A DNA stretch of 64,000 nt from Allocoprobacillus halotolerans (GTDB lineage: Bacteria > Bacillota_I > Bacilli_A > Erysipelotrichales > Coprobacillaceae). The number at the start of each line of letters is the position of its first letter. The first letter of the stretch is position 1. The DNA lies in NCBI RefSeq assembly GCF_024399475.1, contig NZ_CP101620.1, forward strand, positions 1,283,608-1,347,607, read 5' to 3'. Below are positions 44,713 to 61,082 of the stretch, piece after piece. The notes below the pieces were generated by a model, which saw only the letters and a program-made list of their open reading frames with translations, was not told the DNA's origin and did not search any database. Made by a program: the position numbers and the translations under genes.

Positions 44713-46122
44713 ATGAGTGGTTTTTTTGGGGTAGCATCACAAAATGATTGTGTTATGGATTTGTTTTTGGAGTTGATTATCATTCGCATTTAGGAACAAG
44801 AAGGGGTGGAATGGCTGTTTACGGAAAAGAAGGTTTCCAACGTTCTATTCATAATATTGAAAATTCACCTTTTAGAACAAAGTTTGATAAAGATGTTGAA
44901 GAATTTGCAGGTAATATTGGGATTGGATGTATTTCTGATAGTGAAGCCCAACCATTATTGGTCAATTCGCATTTAGGGTCTTTTGCGATTACAACAGTGG
45001 GAAGAATTAACAACTTAGATGAATTAAGAACATTATGTTTTGAACAGGGCAAAACGCATTTCTTAGAAATGAGTGGTGGAGAAATCAATCCTACAGAAAT
45101 GGTTGCGGCATTAATTAATCAAAAGAATCTATTGTTGAAGGGATTCAACATGCACAAAAGTTAGTGAAAGGTTCTATGAGTATTTTAGTGATGACAAGTG
45201 AAGGAATCTATTGTGCAAGAGATAAATTAGGAAGAACACCTGTTATTATTGGTCGTAAGGATGATGCATATTGTGTGACTTTTGAAAGTTCGGCTTTCTT
45301 AAATTTAGGATATCATCATTATAAAGACTTAGGTTCTGGAGAAATTGGATTTATTTATCCTCATGGCTTTACTCAAAAGTAAAACCAAATGATCAAATGA
45401 AGATTTGTTCATTCTTATGGGTTTATTATGGTTATCCAACATCAACATATGAAGGTGTGAATGTCGAAAAGATGCGTTATGACTGTGGTAGTATGCTAGC
45501 AAAACGTGATCAAAGAACAGTGAATCCAGATAGTGTGGCTGGTGTTCCTGATTCAGGACTTGCCCATGCGATTGGATATGCGAATGAATCTGGTATCCCA
45601 TTTGCAAGACCATTCATTAAATATACACCAACTTGGCCTCGTTCATTTATGCCACAAAGTCAAGGTCAAAGAAATTTAATTGCGAAAATGAAATTAATTC
45701 CTGTGAAAGAATTAATTAAAAATAAAAGCCTGTTATTAATTGATGACTCTATTGTAAGAGGAACACAATTAAGAGAAACAACAGAATTTTTATATCAATC
45801 AGGAGCTAAAGAAGTTCATGTAAGACCAGCATGTCCACCTATTTTATATGGATGTAAGTATTTGAATTTCTCACGTTCTAATTCAGAATTAGATTTAATC
45901 ACAAGACGTGTCATTAAAGATTTAGAACAAGGTGAAGTGACTGATGAAGTATTGGCAGAATATGCAAATCCTGATAGTGAAAAATATCAAGCAATGTTAG
46001 ATGAAATCTGTAAGAGATTAAAATTTACTTCTTTAAGATACCATCGTTTAGATGATTTGATTGAATCTATTGGTATTGAACCATGTCATTTATGTACATA
46101 TTGTTGGGATGGTAAAGAATAG
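44713..46122 (+). CDS. purF: amidophosphoribosyltransferase-like PurF (three frameshifts)
   Basis: The reading frame is broken three times, near 44768 (T5 for T6), 45125 (A4 for A5) and 45377 (A4 for A5). Repaired, it is a PurF-type protein of about 470 aa: an N-terminal Ntn-like glutaminase fold (DYHSHLGTRRGGMAVYG), the PRPP-binding loop LLIDDSIVRGTQLRET and Fe-S type cysteines (CHLCTYCWDG). PurF starts purine synthesis from PRPP. The N-terminus reads MSGFFGVAS, so the catalytic N-terminal cysteine of the glutaminase site is missing and the protein may use ammonia or have another role. Confidence 0.85.
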
Positions 46123-46130
46123 AGTAAAGG

Positions 46131-46157
46131 CAGGACGTATAATGCGTTCTGTTTTTT
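46131..46157 (+). terminator. intrinsic terminator after purF
   Basis: Stem CAGGACG (46131-46137) / CGTTCTG (46145-46151), 7-nt loop, then T6. Confidence 0.85.
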
Positions 46158-46214
46158 ATTTCCTATTGTTTTTCAAGAAGTGTTCATGTACAATAAAACA
46201 ACGAGGAGAGAAGC

Positions 46215-47050
46215 ATGGATAGAGTAAAACAAATAGAACAAAGTATTATTAAAAAATATCGTAAACCAATATGGCGAAAGTTTGTCAAAGCAATTCAAAC
46301 ATACGATTTGATACAACCTGATGATAAAATTGCAGTCTGTATATCTGGTGGAAAAGATTCAATGTTGATGGCTAAATTATTACAGGAAATTAAGCGTCAT
46401 GGACAATTTGATTTTGGATTGGTGTTTTTATCGATGGATCCTGGATATAATGAAAAAAATCGTAGGAAAATTGAAGAAAATGCAAAAATAATGGGGATAC
46501 CCGTACAATTTTTGAATCAGATATTTTTAAAGTTGTAACAAATATTGAAAAATCACCATGTTATTTATGTGCAAGGATGCGTCGTGGTTTTTTATATGCG
46601 AAGGCGAAAGAAATTGGATGTAATAAGATTGCTTTAGGACATCACTATGATGATGTGATTGAAACAATTTTGATGGGTATGTTTTATGGTTCACAAATTC
46701 AAACGATGATGCCTAAACTTCATAGTACTAATTTTGAAGGAATGGAATTAATTAGGCCGATGTATTTGATTGAAGAAAAAGATATTATTCATTGGTGTCA
46801 ATATAATGATTTATCATTTATTCAATGTGCTTGTCGTTTTACAGAAGAAATGGAGGAACTAGGAGAAGTCCATCATACTTCTAAACGAGAAGAAATGAAG
46901 AACTTATTAAAATATTTAGAAACAATGAATCCTAATGTGAAAAAGAATGTTTTTAAAAGTGTAGAAAATGTCAATTTGGCAACCATTATTTCATATAGTG
47001 ATGAAACAGGTAAACATCATTTTTTAGATGATTACAATAAAGGAGAATAA
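46215..47050 (+). CDS. ttcA: TtcA-like tRNA 2-thiocytidine synthetase (frameshifted)
   Basis: A PP-loop ATPase of the TtcA family. Seen: VCISGGKDSMLMAK (PP-loop), CYLCARMRRGFLYAKAKEIG (CxxC cluster ligand), and LGHHYDDVIETILMG. A T5 run near 46510 should be T6, restoring PVQFFESDIFKVV. Repaired length is about 278 aa. Start after ACGAGGAGAGAAGC. TtcA thiolates C32 of certain tRNAs using a 4Fe-4S cluster; Firmicute relatives may modify another base. Confidence 0.85.
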
Positions 47051-50474: not shown

Positions 50475-50496
50475 AAACGGAGCAATCCGTTTTTTG
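50474..50496 (+). terminator. intrinsic terminator after PBP gene
   Basis: Stem AAAACGGA (50474-50481) / TCCGTTTT (50486-50493), loop GCAA, then TTT. Confidence 0.88.
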
Positions 50497-50564
50497 TTGT
50501 GTAACAAAAAGTTATTGATAAAGAAAATAGTTGTTTGATAGAATGAGTACAAGGAGGAAAAATT

Positions 50565-50723
50565 ATGAAAAAATTAATAACTACTATTTTTGCATTAACT
50601 TTATTATTTGGAGGAACATTTATTCATGTACATGATGAAAATTGTGGATATGATTCCCAAGCAAAAACAGGTTGTATTTATGAGGAAGTAGAACCATTTA
50701 AACATGAAGGACCTAAAGGATAA
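50565..50723 (+). CDS. 52-aa secreted peptide precursor (candidate signalling peptide)
   Basis: An open frame after AAGGAGGAAAAATT encodes MKKLITTIFALTLLFGGTFI, a clear signal peptide, followed by a 30-residue tail with two cysteines (NCGYDSQAKTGC) and an acidic end (YEEVEPFKHEGPKG). Promoter-like TTGATA (50515) and TAGAAT (50539) lie upstream. It precedes an RRNPP-like regulator by about 18 bases. Size, export signal and position match PapR/Phr-type pheromone precursors; that role is inferred. Confidence 0.65.
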   Translation: MKKLITTIFALTLLFGGTFIHVHDENCGYDSQAKTGCIYEEVEPFKHEGPKG

Positions 50724-51254
50724 AGAAAGAAGTGTATATTGTGAATAAACAATTTGGTGGTATCATAAAAATAAATAGGATTCAACATCGTTTAACTTTA
50801 AGATATATAAGTCATATGACTGGATTATCTAGTGGTTATTTGAGTCGTGTTGAAAGAAATAAGGAAGAAATATCTTTTGAGAATGTTCAAAAGATATTTT
50901 CCTTAATGAATGTAAAACTATATGATAATCATATTGATGGAGAGTTTGAAAGTGGTTTTTATCGGTTTATAAATGATGTTATATATATGAATGATTTTCA
51001 AGAATCATTTTCTAAGTTGGAACAATATAAAAAACAAATATGTAGTTCGTTTTCGTATATAAAATATTTATTGGCTGAAATGATTTATAAAGTAAATACA
51101 GAAAATATTGTCAAAATACAAGATTACTTTTATTTAGAAGATTATTTTGATTATTTAGAGGATTATCAAAAAGTGTTATATTATGAATATATCGGATTGT
51201 TCTTTTATAATAAGTTCTGAAGTATCCGAGTGAAGGATACGGAAGAACTCAATG

Positions 51255-51284
51255 GGCATTTCCCGCAGCTTGCTGCGTAATGCC
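51255..51284. repeat. left-end hairpin of IS200-type element
   Basis: Nested stem GGCATT / AATGCC (51255-51260, 51279-51284) and CGCAGC / GCTGCG (51264-51269, 51272-51277), the kind of structure TnpA recognises. Confidence 0.75.
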
Positions 51285-51291
51285 GAACGAA

Positions 51292-51334
51292 GTATGATAT
51301 AATAAATTGTGTAAAACAATTTATTATATCATAC
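51292..51334. terminator. 19-bp perfect hairpin upstream of tnpA
   Basis: 51292-51310 pairs perfectly with 51316-51334, loop GTAAA. In IS200 relatives such a hairpin stops outside transcription from reaching tnpA; the same role is likely here. Confidence 0.8.
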
Positions 51335-51353
51335 GAGAGTGAGGGCGATGCTA

Positions 51354-51800
51354 ATGGGAAATAGTCAATTTATACATCTATCACATAATGTGAGTAATCT
51401 TGTTTACCACATTGTCTGTCCGGCAAAATATCGTCGCGTAGTATTTGATGATTCTGTTGAAGAACATCTGAAGCAAATTTGCCTTGGGATAGAACTGAGA
51501 TATGATTATATACATTTTCTTGAAATAGGGGCAGACAAAGATCATGTGCATTTTCTTGTTCAAAGTACACCTGAGTATGCTCCTTCAAAATTGGTAAAAA
51601 TCATAAAAAGTATAACTGCAAGGCAAATATTTGTTGAGTGTCCGCAAGTCAAAAAACAACTATGGGGAGGACAATTCTGGAGCGACGGATATTTTATCGC
51701 ATCTGTCGGTAAAAATCAAAACGAAAAAGTAATCAGAGAATATGTGAAAGAACAGGGTAAACAAGATACGGAATATAAGCAGTTGTATTTGAGTATATGA
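51354..51800 (+). CDS. tnpA: IS200-type Y1 (HUH) transposase TnpA
   Basis: A 148-aa single-strand transposase. Seen: YHIVCPAKYRRVVFD at the N-terminus, the HUH motif in DKDHVHFLVQ, the LWGGQFWSDGYFIASVG region and the catalytic tyrosine in IREYVKEQGK. ATG 51354 has GAGG nine bases upstream; ATG 51348 is too close. Intact, so the element could be active. Confidence 0.95.
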   Translation: MGNSQFIHLSHNVSNLVYHIVCPAKYRRVVFDDSVEEHLKQICLGIELRYDYIHFLEIGADKDHVHFLVQSTPEYAPSKLVKIIKSITARQIFVECPQVKKQLWGGQFWSDGYFIASVGKNQNEKVIREYVKEQGKQDTEYKQLYLSI

Positions 51801-51829
51801 TAGCATCGCATAAGCGAAGCGTGAAGATA

Positions 51830-51847
51830 CCCGGGTCTTGACCCGGG
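51830..51847. repeat. right-end hairpin of IS200-type element
   Basis: CCCGGGTC (51830-51837) / GACCCGGG (51840-51847), loop TT; an unusually G/C-rich hairpin for this DNA. Confidence 0.75.
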
Positions 51848-52622
51848 GAGCTTCATTGGATCTGTATATAATGAGGCTATAAAATATTATGATAAAGCCT
51901 TAATGTTTCAAGGGAATGACTACACCAAAGCAATGCTGAATTATCATAGAAGTGCAAGTTTAACTTTTGTAGGAAATCTAATGGAGGCATTGAATTGTGC
52001 ATTAGAGGCTAAAGAATTATTTGCAGAACAATTGAATATTAAAAGGTTAGCTTATATATTATTTCAAATGGCAATTATTTATGATCATAGAAAAGAATTT
52101 TCAAAAAGTGAAGTGTTAAATTTAAGATGTATAAAATTATTTAGTGATTTAAATATGAATGATGCAGTGAATGGCTCTTATAATAATTTGATTTGGAGTT
52201 ATATATGTTCATTTCAGTTTGAAAAAATTATTAATATAAAAGAAGAAGTTTTAAAAAATACGAATAATGATATAAGAATCTTATTTTATATATCATATAC
52301 TTACTATAAATTAAAGAATTTGAAAGAAGCGAAAAAATATATAAAAGAAGCCAAAAAGAATGTATCATTGCTTGAAGATGTCTATTTTATAGATATGATT
52401 AATGCTTTTTATATTTTATTGTTTGGTTCGAGTTATCAAAGAAAAGAAAAATATTTATTAAAAGCATATAAAACAGCAAAAAGAATTGAAACAGTAGAAG
52501 TATGTATATTTGTATTAGAAATCTTAAAAGATTTCTATAAAGAACATAATGAATATATAAAATGTATTGAATGTTTTGAATCTATGATGGAGTTTTATAA
52601 AAATGTGAAATAAAATGCTCAA

Positions 52623-52725
52623 AATTTGTGTAATATTTTACAAAAATTAGTATTTTTTATAAGTGATTAGTACAAAAATTGTGCAAAAATACACAATTGA
52701 AAATAAGTCTATAAAAAGGTACATT
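52623..52725 (+). promoter_or_regulatory. palindromic candidate operators and promoter of the secreted-protein gene
   Basis: AATTGTG (52677-52683) and CACAATT (52692-52698) form a 7-bp palindrome with an 8-base gap. About 52 bases upstream a related imperfect one, TTGTGTAA-TATT-TTACAAAA (about 52626-52645), occurs. A promoter TTGAAA (52697-52702) / TACATT (52720-52725), 17-base spacer, overlaps the second palindrome. Two sites five helical turns apart fit a dimeric regulator such as the interrupted RRNPP protein next door (inference). Confidence 0.5.
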
Positions 52726-52785
52726 TGAAATATAAGATAATTCATATATGAAAAATATCTTTAAAGAAAAAGGTGGACTTATTTA

Positions 52786-53157
52786 ATGAAAAAACTATTA
52801 GGATTATTATTTGCAGGGACAATGCTTTTTGCTGGAATTGGAACTGTACAAGCATTGGATAGTCAGCCAAGAGGACCGCAGTTAGATCCTGTGACAAAAA
52901 CAGCAACAAAAGATTGTAAAGTTGGTTCACTACGATTATTTACCTTGAAACATACAGCAAGATTTATTCCCAACAATTTAGGTACAGCTTGTTCTGTGCA
53001 AAATCACAGTATAAGTGCTATTAACCTTTCTTCAAAATTACAAAATAATGTAATTATTTCAAAAACGGTGTCAGCAGATGGTTTTACTTGTAATGGAAGG
53101 GGATATACACTGTATAATTCAAAAAATCGTTGGGCTTTTACGGAATTAGAGTACTAA
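52786..53157 (+). CDS. 123-aa secreted protein of unknown family
   Basis: It starts after AAAGGTGGACTTATTTA. Residues 1-23 are a signal peptide (MKKLLGLLFAGTMLFAGIG, cleavage after VQA). The mature part of about 100 residues is basic, has three cysteines (DCKVG, TACSVQ, FTCNGRG) and ends in RWAFTELEY. I do not recognise it. Its position before three ABC proteins and after a peptide/regulator pair suggests a bacteriocin-like effector or a transported/sensed protein, as in lactococcin 972-type loci; sequence similarity to that family is not evident. Confidence 0.6.
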   Translation: MKKLLGLLFAGTMLFAGIGTVQALDSQPRGPQLDPVTKTATKDCKVGSLRLFTLKHTARFIPNNLGTACSVQNHSISAINLSSKLQNNVIISKTVSADGFTCNGRGYTLYNSKNRWAFTELEY

Positions 53158-53163
53158 AAGCGG

Positions 53164-53193
53164 TAGTCAAGGCAAATATGTCTTGGCTATTTT
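53164..53193 (+). terminator. terminator-like hairpin after secreted-protein gene
   Basis: Stem TAGTCAAG (53164-53171) / CTTGGCTA (53182-53189) with an inner CA/TG pair, followed by TTTTAT. It may reduce, not abolish, read-through into the ABC genes. Confidence 0.65.
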
Positions 53194-53262
53194 ATATTGA
53201 AATATAAAATAGTGATATATTATAATATAATCAATTTATAAATCAAGGTTAAGGAGAATCAT

Positions 53263-55251
53263 ATGTTAGAAGTAAAAAATATCAATATATCTTTTCAAAG
53301 AAATATATTCAATAATGCCAATATTAAGTTTTATGATTCATGTATTCATGCGATTGTTGGGAAAAGTGGCTCAGGAAAGACAACATTTCTAAGAAGTATC
53401 ATTCAGGATTCTTCTCGTGTACAAATGGAAATATCATATAATGAAGAAGTAATCAGTGAAAAAGATGAGTTTGTCAGAAAGCATATTGGTTATGTGGATC
53501 AGCTCGGAAGCTATTTCCCTAATATGTCTATCAAACAGCATTTTTCTTTCTATGCCAAGATGAAAGGTGAAAAGATAAGTGTTCATGATATAAATGAGTT
53601 TTTATCAAGAGTCAATTTACATCATGTCAACATCAAGAAATCACCAAGTGTTTTATCTATTGGAGAAAGAAAGAGATTTCTGATAGCTTTATCTTTATAC
53701 TGTGATAAGGATATTATAATCTTAGATGAACCTACAGCCTCACTTGATAAAAAGAATATTGCTTTATTGAAAGAAGTCTTATTATCATTAAAAGATAAAA
53801 CTATTATTTTGACAACACATACACAGGAAATATTAGAGATATGTGATGTTGTATATAGGATAGAGAACCAACAATTTGAATGTGAGAAAAATGATAATGA
53901 TAAGTCTAAAAAAGAAAATAAGACACATGAAATCAAAAACTATCGTTTTTCACCAATCAAATACTTTCAATACAAGACACCAATACAATGGATTCAACTT
54001 ATAGGAATGATAGTGATTTCTGTGTTTATCTTGGCACAGTCATTACCATTAATACAATCCTTTTTGATTGCGAATACGATAAATCCACAAGTTACGAATC
54101 AATCATCAAAAGAAATGATATTTTTAAGAAATAGAAGTGGACAATTGTATTTTATGTATGACCCTATCATGGACTGCTATAATTCAAAACCATTTGCTCG
54201 ACAAGAATTAGATAAAATAGAACAATTGGAAGGTGTTAAGACAATTGAAAAAATTGATATGTTTCCTTTGTTTAATCCATCTACATATGAGAATTGTGAA
54301 AAATTTGAAGTGATTGATGAAAAAGGAAATATGCAAACATATGAATTTGATTCATATGGAAGCCGCGCGCCTGCTATTTATCCATATTATAAATATAATA
54401 GTTTTAATGATGGTGATAATGGAATATATATTAGTTCCATGTTATCAAAGATGTGTGATATTCAAGAGGGTGATATGATTAAAGCAAAATGGTATATACC
54501 TAAAAATCAATATATAAGAAATGATAATCCATATAGAGTTATATCTTATGTATTAAAGGAATTTGAGTTTAAAGTCACAAAAGTTTTAAAACCTGAAGAA
54601 GAATATACCACACCATCTCATGATATGATTGTCTATATTCCATATAGTATGTATAACGAAATATTAAATAGTATTAATCAAGATGATAAAGAAATTATGT
54701 CATCAAATGTTATAAGAGCTTCAGAAAAAGTAGATCCTGTTCCATATACAGTAGATGAATATGTTATTTTTGTAGATGAGGATTATGCAAGTGATGTTTA
54801 TAATGCTATTTTAGAAATGGACGATAGCTATGATGTGTATTCAACCTATATGTCATATCTTGATATAGATGCAATGCAACGTGAGGCATTTCAGACAAAA
54901 CTGATTAGCACAGGAGGTATTTGTGGTATAGGAATTATCGCATTTATAACGATTCAATATTTCTTGATGAAATCAAGAAAAGAAGAAATAGAGTTGCTAA
55001 GAAATAATGGAATAAAGAGGAAACAGATTTATCAAAGTATTCTTTTTGAAAATGGTGTTTATTTTATTGTGACATGTGGTATAGGATTGTTGTTATCTTA
55101 TTTATATCAAAGTTATATAGAAGATTTTACCAATGTACTTTTATTTAGTGGAGTGATTATTGTCATTAGTTTTGTTTTATTGTGTGTGAATGTGATTGTG
55201 TCACAATTTATCTTAAAGAAAAAGAAACGTGTAAGGAAAGTAAAACTATAA
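53263..55251 (+). CDS. MacB-like ABC ATPase-permease fusion, copy 1
   Basis: A 662-aa protein. The ATPase (1-215) has Walker A GKSGSGKTT, an unusual signature LSIGERKR, Walker B IIILDEPTASLD and H-loop TTHTQE. One membrane helix (about 240-262), an extracellular domain (about 270-540) and three C-terminal helices (about 555-650, with SRKEEIELLRNNGIKRKQI typical of FtsX) give MacB topology. It is nearly identical to the next gene except for residues about 297-483. Starts after AAGGAGAATCAT. Likely a mechanotransmission transporter for a secreted peptide or antibiotic. Confidence 0.85.
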   Translation: MLEVKNINISFQRNIFNNANIKFYDSCIHAIVGKSGSGKTTFLRSIIQDSSRVQMEISYNEEVISEKDEFVRKHIGYVDQLGSYFPNMSIKQHFSFYAKMKGEKISVHDINEFLSRVNLHHVNIKKSPSVLSIGERKRFLIALSLYCDKDIIILDEPTASLDKKNIALLKEVLLSLKDKTIILTTHTQEILEICDVVYRIENQQFECEKNDNDKSKKENKTHEIKNYRFSPIKYFQYKTPIQWIQLIGMIVISVFILAQSLPLIQSFLIANTINPQVTNQSSKEMIFLRNRSGQLYFMYDPIMDCYNSKPFARQELDKIEQLEGVKTIEKIDMFPLFNPSTYENCEKFEVIDEKGNMQTYEFDSYGSRAPAIYPYYKYNSFNDGDNGIYISSMLSKMCDIQEGDMIKAKWYIPKNQYIRNDNPYRVISYVLKEFEFKVTKVLKPEEEYTTPSHDMIVYIPYSMYNEILNSINQDDKEIMSSNVIRASEKVDPVPYTVDEYVIFVDEDYASDVYNAILEMDDSYDVYSTYMSYLDIDAMQREAFQTKLISTGGICGIGIIAFITIQYFLMKSRKEEIELLRNNGIKRKQIYQSILFENGVYFIVTCGIGLLLSYLYQSYIEDFTNVLLFSGVIIVISFVLLCVNVIVSQFILKKKKRVRKVKL

Positions 55252-55327
55252 GATAAGTTATCTGAAAGATAGGACTTCATTTATGATTATGCTACAATAG
55301 AACTATAAATTTTTAAGGGAGAATCAT

Positions 55328-57313
55328 ATGTTAGAAGTAAAAAATATCAATATATCTTTTCAAAGAAATATATTCAATAATGCCAAGATTAAGTTTTATG
55401 ATTCATGTATTCATGCGATTGTTGGGAAAAGTGGCTCAGGAAAGACAACATTTCTAAGAAGTATCATTCAGGATTCTTCTCGTGTACAAATGGAAATATC
55501 ATATAATGAAGAAGTAATCAGTGAAAAAGATGATTTTGTCAGAAAGCATATTGGTTATGTGGATCAGCTCGGAAGCTATTTCCCTAATATGTCTATCAAA
55601 CAGCATTTTTCTTTCTATGCCAAGATGAAGGGTGAAAAGATAAGTGTTCATGATATAAATGAGTTTTTATCAAGAGTCAATTTACATCATGTCAACATCA
55701 AGAAATCACCAAGTGTTTTATCTATTGGAGAAAGAAAGAGATTTCTGATAGCTTTAGCTTTATACTGTGATAAGGATATTATAATCTTAGATGAACCTAC
55801 AGCCTCACTTGATAAAAAGAATATTGCTTTGTTGAAAGAAGTCTTATTATCATTAAAAGATAAAACTATTATTTTGACAACACATACACAGGAAATATTA
55901 GAGATATGTGATGTTGTATATAGGATAGAGAACCAACAATTTGAATGTGAGAAAAATGATAATGATAAGTCTAAAAAAGAAAATAAGACACATGAAATCA
56001 AAAACTATCGTTTTTCACCAATCAAATACTTTCAATACAAGACACCAATACAATGGATTCAACTTATAGGAATGATAGTGATTTCTGTGTTTATCTTGGC
56101 ACAGTCATTACCATTAACACAATCCTTTTTGATTGCGAATACGATAAATCCACAAGTTACGAATCAATCATCAAAAGAAATGATATTTTTAAGAAATAGA
56201 AGTGGACAATTGTATTCAATATATGCTCCAGCATATGAAGATGAAATCATTCAACCTTTTTCTAAAGACGATATGAATAAAATTAAGGATATGGAAGGAG
56301 TGAAAGGGATAGAAACATTTACCTCTATAAAACTTTTTAATCCTCATAATACAGAAGAAGCACAAAATATGGAAGTCATAGATGAACAAGAAAATTCCAC
56401 AGTTTATTCAGTTGATGAAGGAAGTGGAGCGCCTGCTATTTTTCCTTACTATGAATATAATGATTTTAATAAACACGATCAAGGAGTTTATATTAGTTCT
56501 TGGTTATCAAAAATATATAATATTCAAGTAGGTGATACGATAAAAGCAAAGTTTTATGTACCATATCAACAATATGTTTTAGGTGATAATCCCTATAGAA
56601 AAATTTCATATGTCCTAAAAGAAGTTGAATTAAAAGTAGCGAGAGTACTAAGTGATGAGGAATCTTATTCATCAATAGCAACTGATTTAATGATTTATGT
56701 ACCTGACAATATATTTAATGATATATTAAATAGTGTTGACCAAAATGATGAAGAAATTATAACGCCCGGGATTATAAGAGCTTCAGAAAAAGTAGATCCT
56801 ATTCCATATACAGTAGATGAATATGTTATTTTTGTAGATGAGGATTATGTAAGTGATGTTTATAATGCCATTTTAGAAATGGATGATAGCTATGATGTGT
56901 ATTCGACTTATATGACATATCTCGAGGCAGATGTAATGCAACGTGAGGCATTTCAGACAAAACTGATTAGCACAGGAGGTATTTGTGGTATAGGAATTAT
57001 CGCATTTATAACGATCCAATATTTCTTGATGAAATCAAGAAAAGAAGAAATAGAGTTACTAAAAAACAATGGAATAAAGAGAAAACAGATTTATCAAAGT
57101 ATTCTTTTTGAAAATGGTGTTTATTTTATTGTAACATGTGGTATAGGATTGTTGTTATCTTATTTATATCAAAGTTATATAGAAGATTTTACCAATGTAC
57201 TTTTATTTAGTGGAGTGATTATTGTCATTAGTTTTGTTTTATTGTGTGTGAATGTCATTGTGTCACAATTTATCTTAAAGAAAAAGAAACATATCAAGAA
57301 AATACGATTATGA
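55328..57313 (+). CDS. MacB-like ABC ATPase-permease fusion, copy 2
   Basis: A 661-aa tandem paralogue of the preceding gene. In residues 1-296 I find four substitutions (N/K, E/D, S/A, I/T), and the C-terminal third is again nearly identical, but residues about 297-483 differ at roughly half of positions. Key residues (GKSGSGKTT, LSIGERKR, DEPTASLD) are unchanged. The RBS context GGGAGAATCATATG is also duplicated. A TACAAT -10 near 55292 may give it its own promoter. Confidence 0.85.
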   Translation: MLEVKNINISFQRNIFNNAKIKFYDSCIHAIVGKSGSGKTTFLRSIIQDSSRVQMEISYNEEVISEKDDFVRKHIGYVDQLGSYFPNMSIKQHFSFYAKMKGEKISVHDINEFLSRVNLHHVNIKKSPSVLSIGERKRFLIALALYCDKDIIILDEPTASLDKKNIALLKEVLLSLKDKTIILTTHTQEILEICDVVYRIENQQFECEKNDNDKSKKENKTHEIKNYRFSPIKYFQYKTPIQWIQLIGMIVISVFILAQSLPLTQSFLIANTINPQVTNQSSKEMIFLRNRSGQLYSIYAPAYEDEIIQPFSKDDMNKIKDMEGVKGIETFTSIKLFNPHNTEEAQNMEVIDEQENSTVYSVDEGSGAPAIFPYYEYNDFNKHDQGVYISSWLSKIYNIQVGDTIKAKFYVPYQQYVLGDNPYRKISYVLKEVELKVARVLSDEESYSSIATDLMIYVPDNIFNDILNSVDQNDEEIITPGIIRASEKVDPIPYTVDEYVIFVDEDYVSDVYNAILEMDDSYDVYSTYMTYLEADVMQREAFQTKLISTGGICGIGIIAFITIQYFLMKSRKEEIELLKNNGIKRKQIYQSILFENGVYFIVTCGIGLLLSYLYQSYIEDFTNVLLFSGVIIVISFVLLCVNVIVSQFILKKKKHIKKIRL

Positions 57314-57325
57314 AAGGATTAAAAT

Positions 57326-59110
57326 ATGTTAGTTTTAAAAAATATTCATTTAGCATTTGATCATGATTTAATTAAAAATGGAGAAATAGAAGTTGTTGAT
57401 GGACAATTAACTGTTCTTTTTGGACCAAGTGGTTCAGGGAAAAGTAGTTTATTATATGATATGGCTTTTCTAACGAATCAGGCTCAAATGGATTATTCTT
57501 TTAATGGAATTGATGTTAAAACTTTATCACATCATGAAATTAAAGATATTCAAAGAAATCAAATTTCATTTGTATTTCAAAATATACCATTATTTAATAG
57601 TATGACTTTAATGGAAAATATTCGTTTCTTTTCTAGTTTGACACATGATACGTTTGATGAAGAAAAAGCAAGACAATATTTGACAGACTTAGAACTTTAT
57701 TTAGATGATCATACATCTATTGAACATTTATCAGGTGGAGAAAGACAACGTTTAGCGATTATTTGTGCTTTAATGAAAGATACACCTTATATATTTATGG
57801 ATGAACCAACAGCTTATTTAGATGAAGATAATCGTCAAGAATTCATAAAAATATTAGAATTATTAAAAAATCAATATCATAAAACAATAATTATCGCAAG
57901 TCATGATGATTTATTAAAAGAAGTATGTGATACGATTTATGAAATAGAGAATCAAACTATTCATTGTATAAAACATGAAAATCATAGAGAAAACAAAATG
58001 ACTTATCAAAAAACATCACATATTTTTCATAAATTATCAGTTTTCTTTCAATTCCAATTTTATAAAGAGAGATGGAAACATAGATTTTTCCAAATCTTTT
58101 TAACGTTTATTTTATTTATGAGTACATTTATGGGTGTATATTTCCAATATTATCAAAAACAATTAATGCAGTCAGTAGAAGAATATAAAAGTTTACAGTT
58201 AGTTGTTGAAATGGAAAATAATATTGGTTCTACTCAATTAAGAGAAATAGAAAGTATGGAACATATTCAAAGAGTAGAAAAGATTTATCCCTTAATAACA
58301 AATAATAATTATTTAATATGTCCTTATTTAGAAACAGATTTCTTCTATAATGATATAGAAGAAACATTTGATACACAATCATATACAGGTATTTATATCA
58401 ATTATGAAACTTATCGAGATACAAAAGATTATCCTATTGAAATTGTTTTAGATAATCAAACAATACATCTACAACCCCAATTTCAATTAAAAAGAACATT
58501 TGAACCCTATACATTAAATACATCTTTTGCACGTATTATATATATGCCTTATGATGATTATATCAATATTTATAATCAAATAGATATGGAAAATAATCAA
58601 ACACCATTTGCTTTAATATCCTTAGATGATAAAGAATGTTATATTGATGTTTTAGAGGCATTATCTTTAAAATATGATGGGATGACTTTACAAAGTCATC
58701 AAGATATATTTATGTTGCTGGATGTTAAAAATATGGCTGATTATCTTAGTGGGACAATGATTGTATTGATTTTTATCATTGTTGTGATTTCTATTGTTCT
58801 TTTGAAGATGAATGATTATTATCATTCAAGATTTTCTGAAGTCTTATTAGAGGCTAATGGAATTGAAAATCGTAAAATTATGAAAGCACGTATTCAAAGA
58901 GAGTGTCTTTTATATATTGTTCCTATTGTTGTGGTATATATTGGATTGATTATTTGTTATTGGGGATTGGATATGTTAAGTGGAATTATTGCGATATATT
59001 CATTGATTATATTGATTGCTATGACAGTCTTTATATTTGTTGTATCCATGATGATTTATATGATTATAAGAAAAATCTTTCCTACAACAAAAATACTCAA
59101 ATCAATATAG
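57326..59110 (+). CDS. MacB-like ABC ATPase-permease fusion, copy 3 (divergent)
   Basis: A 594-aa relative with the same layout but distant sequence: Walker A GPSGSGKSS, canonical LSGGERQRLA, Walker B YIFMDEPTAYLD, H-loop ASHDD, TM1 at about 247-270, a shorter extracellular domain and three C-terminal helices. It starts 12 bases after copy 2 (GAAAGGATTAAAAT) and so belongs to the same operon. It may pair with copy 1 or 2 as a heterodimer, because only it keeps a standard ABC signature. The DDE insertion sequence begins 2 bases after its stop codon. Confidence 0.85.
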   Translation: MLVLKNIHLAFDHDLIKNGEIEVVDGQLTVLFGPSGSGKSSLLYDMAFLTNQAQMDYSFNGIDVKTLSHHEIKDIQRNQISFVFQNIPLFNSMTLMENIRFFSSLTHDTFDEEKARQYLTDLELYLDDHTSIEHLSGGERQRLAIICALMKDTPYIFMDEPTAYLDEDNRQEFIKILELLKNQYHKTIIIASHDDLLKEVCDTIYEIENQTIHCIKHENHRENKMTYQKTSHIFHKLSVFFQFQFYKERWKHRFFQIFLTFILFMSTFMGVYFQYYQKQLMQSVEEYKSLQLVVEMENNIGSTQLREIESMEHIQRVEKIYPLITNNNYLICPYLETDFFYNDIEETFDTQSYTGIYINYETYRDTKDYPIEIVLDNQTIHLQPQFQLKRTFEPYTLNTSFARIIYMPYDDYINIYNQIDMENNQTPFALISLDDKECYIDVLEALSLKYDGMTLQSHQDIFMLLDVKNMADYLSGTMIVLIFIIVVISIVLLKMNDYYHSRFSEVLLEANGIENRKIMKARIQRECLLYIVPIVVVYIGLIICYWGLDMLSGIIAIYSLIILIAMTVFIFVVSMMIYMIIRKIFPTTKILKSI

Positions 59111-59112
59111 TA
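59105..59112. repeat. 8-bp target site duplication, left copy
   Basis: ATATAGTA directly abuts the left inverted repeat and is repeated exactly at 61063-61070. Confidence 0.9.
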
Positions 59113-59244
59113 GGTAGAGTCAAAAATCTATGAAAGTTTTACTCTTTGCAACTTTACAAAGTGTACGATGACTCTGGCAGGATGCATTTATTTGAAAATC
59201 TTTCTTTGTCTTTTTCCAAAATTTACGGACTGCCATCTTTCCAA

Positions 59245-59266
59245 TAAAAAAAGCCCATTTTTGGGC
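59245..59266 (-). terminator. terminator of the DDE transposase gene
   Basis: Stem GCCCA (59253-59257) / TGGGC (59262-59266); on the minus strand it is followed by TTTTTTTATTGG. Confidence 0.75.
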
Positions 59267-59316
59267 GCAATGAGGGTATCGTTTCTCACGTCATTTTTTT
59301 TAAAATGGTGAACTTT

Positions 59317-60879
59317 CTATGCTGCGTGATATTGTGAGCTGTACTCGATAAGTTGCAGCCATCTGTCAGGCATAAGCATATCCTTTTTGAACAGACCGTC
59401 ATCAACAGGCGTCTTATAGTTCAGTGCTGAATGCCTTCTTAAGAAATTGAAGAAGCATACAAACAGGACCATATAACTATTTGCACATTCAAGCCTGTCA
59501 TAGCCATTTGTTCCCTGATAGTTTTGCTTGTATGTCCTGTTGAGGCGCTCCTCAATCTGCTTGAAAGGTCTGTATTTCTGTGATTCCTCATCAAGATTCT
59601 TTACACCGATGACCTGATGCAGGTCAAACTTGATTCCATTGATTTCAAAGAAAACCTGTGCTGCATTATAGATTGGATTCCCATCTGTTATAAGAGTCAT
59701 GTCATCTGGGATTTCACTGTAATGACTTAGACACTCATAAATAGATGTACAGGCACATTTTGTATCTCTTACGGGATAAATTGTGTAAGAAGTGATGATC
59801 TTTGTCTTGGGATCAGACCAGAAGAACACGTAATGATTCTTGCCTCTTATCTTAATATAGGTTTCATCGCCGGACAATATGGAGCCAAGCCTGTATGGAT
59901 ACCTGTCAACAAGAGGCTTGACTAGACGTGATACAGTTGTCGCATAGTTGATGACTGTCTGGTGTGATATTTTAAAGCCATGGACTTCCCTGATGATCAG
60001 TGCAGTCTTTCTTGAAGAAAGACCATAGTTGACGTAATAGGTCAATGCCAATCCAAGGATTCTGTGATCAAAATGAATTCTTGAAAGATTGACAGGAGTT
60101 GTGATGTTTTCTTCAGTCTTTTTAAGACTGTCAAGATTGAACTTGAAGTCACGATAGTGATAGCGAAGCCTGTACTGATTGCTTGAAGTCAGAAGGTGTT
60201 CTCCCTTTCCTTCATCGACAAGCTTTTTGTTTTTGATGTAATAGGGGCATTTCATGCTTGGGCATACAAAAACAAGATATCCCTGGCGGTCGTGCTTCAT
60301 ATCAAGCTTTTTGCCACAATGAGGACAGAAGATGCCCGTTTCACCGGAAAGAGAGATCTTCAGGGAGAATGTCTGGCAGCATACCTTGCACATGAATTGA
60401 CCGCGACCATTGTTGTCATAGATATATTCATGAGGAGCACCACAAAAAGGGTAGACACCCTTAAAGTCAAAATTATTGTTTCTTCTGTTGACGGGCTTGA
60501 TAGGACGACCATCCTTTAATGCATTTCTAAGAATATCTTCAAAACTCAGCTGAACAGGTGCTTCCTTTTTGAAGACAGGAGGCTCGTCAATTTTAAAGTC
60601 GGCATAAGGAATGGTATGATCATTCTTATTGGATTTCTTTAATTTCTTAAACTCTTTTTTAAGAGAGGGATTGATGTGTTTATCAAAGAAATCAATCATC
60701 CAGTCGAGATGGATTGTCACCTGCTCAAGGTGATAAATAAAATCAGAGGAATTAAGATGATACTCAACAGAATGAGGGATAGAATTTATCAACTGAAAGA
60801 AATCAATATATTTGGAAAACTTAAAGTTAGATTTAGAAAAAGAATTTAAATTATTTAAGATATGTGTTATAGTATTCAT
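59317..60879 (-). CDS. DDE transposase with zinc-ribbon region
   Basis: A 520-aa protein. The N-terminal 120 residues are helical; residues about 150-240 hold cysteine pairs (CKVCCQTF, CPHCGKKLD, CPSMKCPYY) like zinc ribbons. An HTH follows (SSRKTALIIREVHGFKISHQT), then the DDE core: SGDETYIKIRG (D about 338), LITDGNPIY (D about 398) and KQIEERLNR (E about 442). ATG at 60879 is chosen since AAAGGATATTTCAC lies just upstream; an earlier in-frame ATG at 60936 is inside the folded leader. Confidence 0.88.
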   Translation of the reverse strand: MNTITHILNNLNSFSKSNFKFSKYIDFFQLINSIPHSVEYHLNSSDFIYHLEQVTIHLDWMIDFFDKHINPSLKKEFKKLKKSNKNDHTIPYADFKIDEPPVFKKEAPVQLSFEDILRNALKDGRPIKPVNRRNNNFDFKGVYPFCGAPHEYIYDNNGRGQFMCKVCCQTFSLKISLSGETGIFCPHCGKKLDMKHDRQGYLVFVCPSMKCPYYIKNKKLVDEGKGEHLLTSSNQYRLRYHYRDFKFNLDSLKKTEENITTPVNLSRIHFDHRILGLALTYYVNYGLSSRKTALIIREVHGFKISHQTVINYATTVSRLVKPLVDRYPYRLGSILSGDETYIKIRGKNHYVFFWSDPKTKIITSYTIYPVRDTKCACTSIYECLSHYSEIPDDMTLITDGNPIYNAAQVFFEINGIKFDLHQVIGVKNLDEESQKYRPFKQIEERLNRTYKQNYQGTNGYDRLECANSYMVLFVCFFNFLRRHSALNYKTPVDDGLFKKDMLMPDRWLQLIEYSSQYHAA

Positions 60880-60936
60880 GTGAAATATCCTTTCGTTAGA
60901 TTTTGTGTAAAGAATACTATAACATGGATATTTCAC
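60865..60936 (-). promoter_or_regulatory. crossed inverted repeats around the transposase RBS
   Basis: On the minus strand the order is GTGAAATATCC (60936-60926), TGTTATAGTATT (60924-60913), GGATATTTCAC (60890-60880), ATG, AATACTATAACA (60876-60865). The first pairs with the third and the second with the fourth, 11 and 12 bp, a pseudoknot order that would hide the RBS and start region in a long transcript. Confidence 0.65.
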
Positions 60937-61062
60937 TTTTTTAATACAAATTTTAGAGAAATAGTAAAAAAATAAGAATACAAATTATTATTAAAATAGA
61001 ACAAATAAAACAAATCAAGAGTAGTGCATTTGTGTTGTCATATAGCAACTTTTGACACTACC

Positions 61063-61070
61063 ATATAGTA
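61063..61070. repeat. 8-bp target site duplication, right copy
   Basis: ATATAGTA, exact copy of 59105-59112. Confidence 0.9.
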
Positions 61071-61082
61071 TAAGAGGTGAAA

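Follow-up and report, generated by a model that had tools for sequence, protein, structure and literature searches.

MacB and the other type VII ABC transporters, among them Gram-positive homologues such as YknXYZ (PMC5985334), combine an ATPase, a first transmembrane helix (TM1), an ectodomain and three further helices (TM2-4) in one chain. ABC components are also found in lactococcin 972-type bacteriocin clusters, together with a regulator and a small protein whose N-terminus resembles a signal peptide. Genes for a regulator, a secreted bacteriocin, a predicted immunity protein and a predicted transporter follow in comparable order in the pneumococcal scb locus, and according to the same study the immunity/transporter function is unverified in any lactococcin 972 locus (PMC11796350). 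Where gene conversion drives the concerted evolution of tandem paralogues, as in the gene pairs of PMC2720389, the paralogues become more alike than orthologues in parts of the gene, and conflicting trees and patchy tracts result.

The window analyzed here, a stretch of 64,000 nucleotides from the genome of Allocoprobacillus halotolerans (G000), contains two neighboring fusions of the MacB type, A1 and A2, followed by a third, C (Table 1); no published study of the locus was found in the literature. A1 and A2 carry all three marks of concerted evolution, and we regard them as a clear new example of this familiar process, set in an accessory peptide-transporter locus, and not as a new kind of system. 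They differ from the described cases in that homogenisation spares a core of 187 codons, which leaves two outer domains on one engine. The result is a natural pair in which a MacB-like engine is almost constant and the outer domain is half different, located beside a candidate secreted peptide; homogenisation appears to stop where homology falls off, so that an old difference between the ectodomains persists.

Table 1. Features of the locus, in window positions. G-numbers denote compared genomes.
Feature	Position	Strand	Evidence or remark
5' half of helix-turn-helix/TPR regulator	50732..51220	+	Pfam HTH_3; 68% to residues 6-156 of intact G002 regulator
IS200-type transposase gene inside regulator	51339..51800	+	NF033573 above cut-off; Y1_Tnp
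3' half of regulator (TPR part)	51903..52613	+	53% to residues 158-407 of G002 regulator
Small protein, 123 aa, apparent signal peptide, without known family	52786..53157	+	
Terminator-like hairpin in the small protein-A1 gap	53162..53191	+	consensus scan; weak: 2 found vs 1.1 expected in region
A1, MacB-like ABC-permease fusion with odd core, 662 aa	53263..55251	+	ABC_tran and FtsX (Pfam); structure model; fold match to MacB
A1 homogenised N-flank (ATPase, TM1, first ectodomain strand), codons 1-296	53263..54150	+	codon alignment
A1 divergent ectodomain core, codons 297-483	54151..54711	+	codon alignment, breakpoint scan
A1 patchily homogenised C-flank, codons 484-655	54712..55227	+	
A1 unconverted tail, codons 656-662 and stop	55228..55251	+	8/21 nt differ from A2
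Spacer A1-A2, 76 nt	55252..55327	+	without other strong match in genome
A2, MacB-like fusion, core orthologous to single gene of G002/G004, 661 aa	55328..57313	+	
A2 ectodomain core, counterpart of A1 54151-54711	56216..56773	+	
C, third ABC-permease fusion, single copy, probable A-type partner	57326..59110	+	ABC_tran; after A in G002, G004, G001, G027

According to Pfam matches and a structure model, the ATPase domain of A1 is followed by one helix, a large ectodomain and another three helices (model helices at 240-269, 532-581, 586-619 and 624-651). MacB was the top Foldseek match of the full-length model (5lil, E 4e-21). This model is of moderate confidence (pLDDT 70, pTM 0.40), which also sets the confidence with which the mosaic described below can be mapped onto the structure. 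For the ectodomain modelled by itself (pLDDT 59) no fold match with an E-value below 0.001 was obtained. Several features set the locus apart from MacB systems. The ORFs between 52786 and 59110 comprise only the small protein, A1, A2 and C, and no MacA-type adaptor gene was found among them; instead, three successive fusions adjoin the gene of a small secreted protein. C reaches 96.5 bits with the curated MacB model NF007826, far below its cut-off of 966, and this model was not among the 25 best for A1 or A2. In addition, the five full-length A-type ATPases that were aligned have LSIGE where the canonical signature is LSGGQ, and C has LSGGE, a combination that would suit an asymmetric heterodimer of the putative partners A and C. 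The VIA-align rows mostly cover the ATPase and give little information on the remainder, and the matches reported by PADLOC were discarded as generic ATPase matches.

The preliminary description had called A1 and A2 nearly identical at both ends, with about half of the residues different in an extracellular block between two sharp borders. Codon alignment bears this out for the ATPase and first helix, where 6 of 888 nucleotides differ (codons 1-296, 99.3% identity), and for codons 297-483, in which identity falls to 49% on the amino acid and 63% on the nucleotide level. The C-terminal helices are again nearly identical, with 93% (amino acids) and 95% (nucleotides) over codons 484-662, but the similarity is patchy, in particular in codons 484-537 and in the last seven codons. 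When two breakpoints were fitted, the log-likelihood ratio was highest, at 204, for the segment of codons 297-482; since the maximum in 200 permutations was 12, a chance origin of the mosaic can be excluded. The first dense difference is found at 54152 and the dense block ends at 54711, both as described before. Only its end in A2 had to be moved by three bases, from 56776 to 56773, because A2 has a one-codon gap opposite A1 codon 365. Both borders coincide with motifs conserved in the family.

On the 3' side the mosaic has no single clean end. Of the 162 nucleotides of codons 484-537, 12 differ; codons 538-655 show 7 differences in 354 nucleotides, and the last seven codons show 8 in 21. Codons 484-537 are more diverged than the N-flank (p 1e-6) and the last seven codons more than codons 538-655 (p 1e-7), whereas the difference between codons 538-655 and the N-flank is borderline (p 0.06). 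Zones of different divergence of this kind are what several conversion tracts would leave. The diverged tail of A1 is apparently still homologous to the tails of A2 and G002. Upstream of the start codons the identity between the copies reaches back by only about 16 nt.

A single A-type gene followed by C is present in G002, G004, G001 and G027 (the G004 contig begins inside the A gene). G002 is a relative of the same genus and carries the same locus at the same place. Compared with the G002 gene, A2 is even along its length, with 75, 65 and 62% amino acid identity in N-flank, core and C-flank, whereas for A1 the value falls to 44%, in the core alone. In the N-flank the two copies are 98.6% identical to each other on the protein level and 74–75% identical to G002; in the core, A2 shares 65% with G002 but 49% with A1. 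Only in the converted parts, then, do the paralogues resemble each other more closely than they resemble the orthologue. The trees agree with this. A1 and A2 are sisters in the N-flank, where grouping of A2 with G002 is rejected (AU p 0.007 for protein, 0.001 for nucleotides). In the core protein tree A2 is grouped with G002 and G004 with a support of 99/97, and the pairing of A1 with A2 is rejected (AU p 0.019), although the same pairing is not significantly rejected on nucleotides (AU p 0.16). For the C-flank the pair has moderate support (76–93). An earlier tree rooted with G012/G013 had suffered from long branches (AU p 0.048) and was replaced by the one used here. Given the even profile of A2, the drop of A1 in the core and the agreement of the trees, the A2 core is the ortholog of the relatives’ single-copy gene and the A1 core is the odd one. 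Scanning genome contigs with N-terminal patterns, we obtained full-length relatives from Longibaculum muris and Massilimicrobiota sp. An134 among the matches listed. A relative carrying both core types was not found; long residence of A1 beside A2 would need loss in G002 and G004 or arrival from an unsampled lineage.

The surroundings of the pair vary between genomes. In G002 an intact regulator is followed by a decayed homologue of the small-protein gene with an internal stop and a frame change (L036:8470-8653), one A gene and C. In G001 the block from regulator to C (50475-61076) is missing at the site, the flanking genes being about 0.6 kb apart (L141), and an A-C pair is situated elsewhere in the genome; the module is therefore accessory. 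The G003 contig stops just past the preceding gene (L140). In our genome an IS200-type element splits the regulator (50732-52613) that is intact in G002, and control of the module in this strain may have been altered by the insertion. Promoter-like sites at the locus were no commoner than in shuffled sequence, and no promoter is proposed here. Downstream of C, on the minus strand, lies a transposase-like gene (59317-60936) with a DDE_Tnp_IS240 match; its scores with NCBIfam IS models stay below the cut-offs.

We then compared synonymous divergence along the pair. Between A1 and A2, dS is 0.012 in the N-flank, about 1.2 in the core and 0.14 in the C-flank, where values near 1 are saturated and the core estimate has to be read with that caution. 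Genes neighboring the locus show a dS of 0.65–1.14 between G000 and G002, so the two cores separated no later than about the time at which these species split. The N-flanks, in contrast, were made alike very recently.

Taken together, we consider it fairly probable that A1 and A2 are long-separated paralogues whose flanks were recently and repeatedly converted, and which act with C as heterodimers on a peptide outside the cell. Gene conversion of the flanks had already been proposed in the preliminary description and is favored by the contrast in dS, the conflicting flank and core protein trees and the patchy 3' tracts; as a process it is read from this pattern of sequence similarity. Starting from one MacB-like (type VII) fusion, conversion between the neighboring copies would have homogenised both sides of the ectodomain core, nearly completely at the ATPase/TM1 end and patchily at the TM2-4 end. 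The core itself may have been too divergent for conversion or may have been kept apart by selection, A2 presumably retaining the vertically inherited version and A1 a distinct one. A-type and C-type fusions would form a heterodimer in which ATP-driven mechanotransmission acts on a peptide outside the membrane, and which may export the resident small secreted protein or protect the cell from it. A1/C and A2/C would then have a common engine and different recognition domains. For the pairing of A with C as well as for the role of the peptide we rely on gene order and knowledge of the family.

The main rival to gene conversion is a cassette exchange: a recent tandem duplication of A2, after which the centre of one copy was exchanged, through homologous recombination at the conserved motifs on either side, for that of an unsampled relative. 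The sharp 5' border at 54152 next to a near-identical N-flank would be expected from such an event, the position of both borders at conserved motifs fits it, and the accessory nature and patchy distribution of the locus are in line with import. One duplication and one exchange of the centre are nevertheless disfavored because of the patchy 3' side and the diverged but apparently homologous tail of A1; additional events would be needed to explain why divergence exceeds that of the N-flank in codons 484-537 and in the last seven. Moreover, the donor that the preliminary description had proposed to look for in related genomes did not turn up: nothing closer to the A1 core than A2 with its 49% was present in the same genome, in 316 genomes of the order, in a class sample of 395 genomes or among plasmids, phages and viral contigs. 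An unsampled source of the A1 core is possible, but overall we judge the exchange unlikely, at less than half the weight given to gene conversion.

Recent duplication followed by diversifying selection on the ligand-facing domain, also put forward initially, is very improbable. The divergent block is extracellular in the model, and between A1 and G002 dN/dS (omega) is near 1 over codons 297-343, so that local relaxed or episodic selection may have acted on A1. Over the whole core, however, omega amounts to about 0.33 for A1 against A2 and to 0.16 for A2 against its G002 orthologue. Selection on point mutations does not raise dS a hundredfold from the flank to the core, nor would it group the A2 core protein with a gene of another species. 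On the basis of dS we rejected positive selection as the cause of the core difference, which is mostly old and constrained rather than new. Least probable is a chimeric or duplicated sequence produced by the assembly, since the genome is a single 2.93-Mb contig of closed size and A1 and A2 differ in their upstream and downstream sequence, with both frames fully open and A2 and C matching the gene order of G002; residual assembly errors may nonetheless exist, as several nearby genes are frame-broken relative to G002. Two genes at 44748-47050, each a single ORF in G002 (482 and 280 aa), are broken up into several ORFs here, which suggests either real frameshifts or such residual errors.

Returning to gene conversion between paralogues as the preferred reading, we considered what the pair might transport. 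All three ATPases are closest to TIGR03608, a lactococcin-972-associated ABC subfamily, although A1, A2 and C remain below its cut-off (101, 102 and 146 bits vs 254.85). A search with the membrane parts of the three fusions gave no model of a bacteriocin-associated 7TM protein at E 1, and none of the Pfam and NCBIfam models matches the small protein at E 0.1. In both respects the locus departs from lactococcin 972-type clusters, in which a small protein matching a bacteriocin model and a 7TM immunity-type protein are found, while regulator, small protein with signal-peptide-like start and ABC component are common to both. By this comparison the locus is predicted to export, or to protect against, a bacteriocin-like peptide, probably the resident small protein. 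Only one peptide gene is located beside the A1/A2 pair. It is plausible, as a prediction, that the two copies handle different peptides, as initially suggested. More specifically, the pair could be a module of two specificities in which conversion keeps the A1 and A2 engines interchangeable with the shared C, and in which two old types of ectodomain, maintained by selection, recognise the resident peptide (A1) and the peptides of relatives (A2); we regard this version as rather doubtful. In G002, where the small-protein gene has decayed, regulator, A and C are still open, i.e. a transporter is retained without its peptide. At three further places in the A. halotolerans genome (L032, L033, L035), ORF inspection showed ABC/permease genes that apparently adjoin the gene of a small protein whose N-terminus resembles a signal peptide, and loci of this type seem to be recurrent in this genome.
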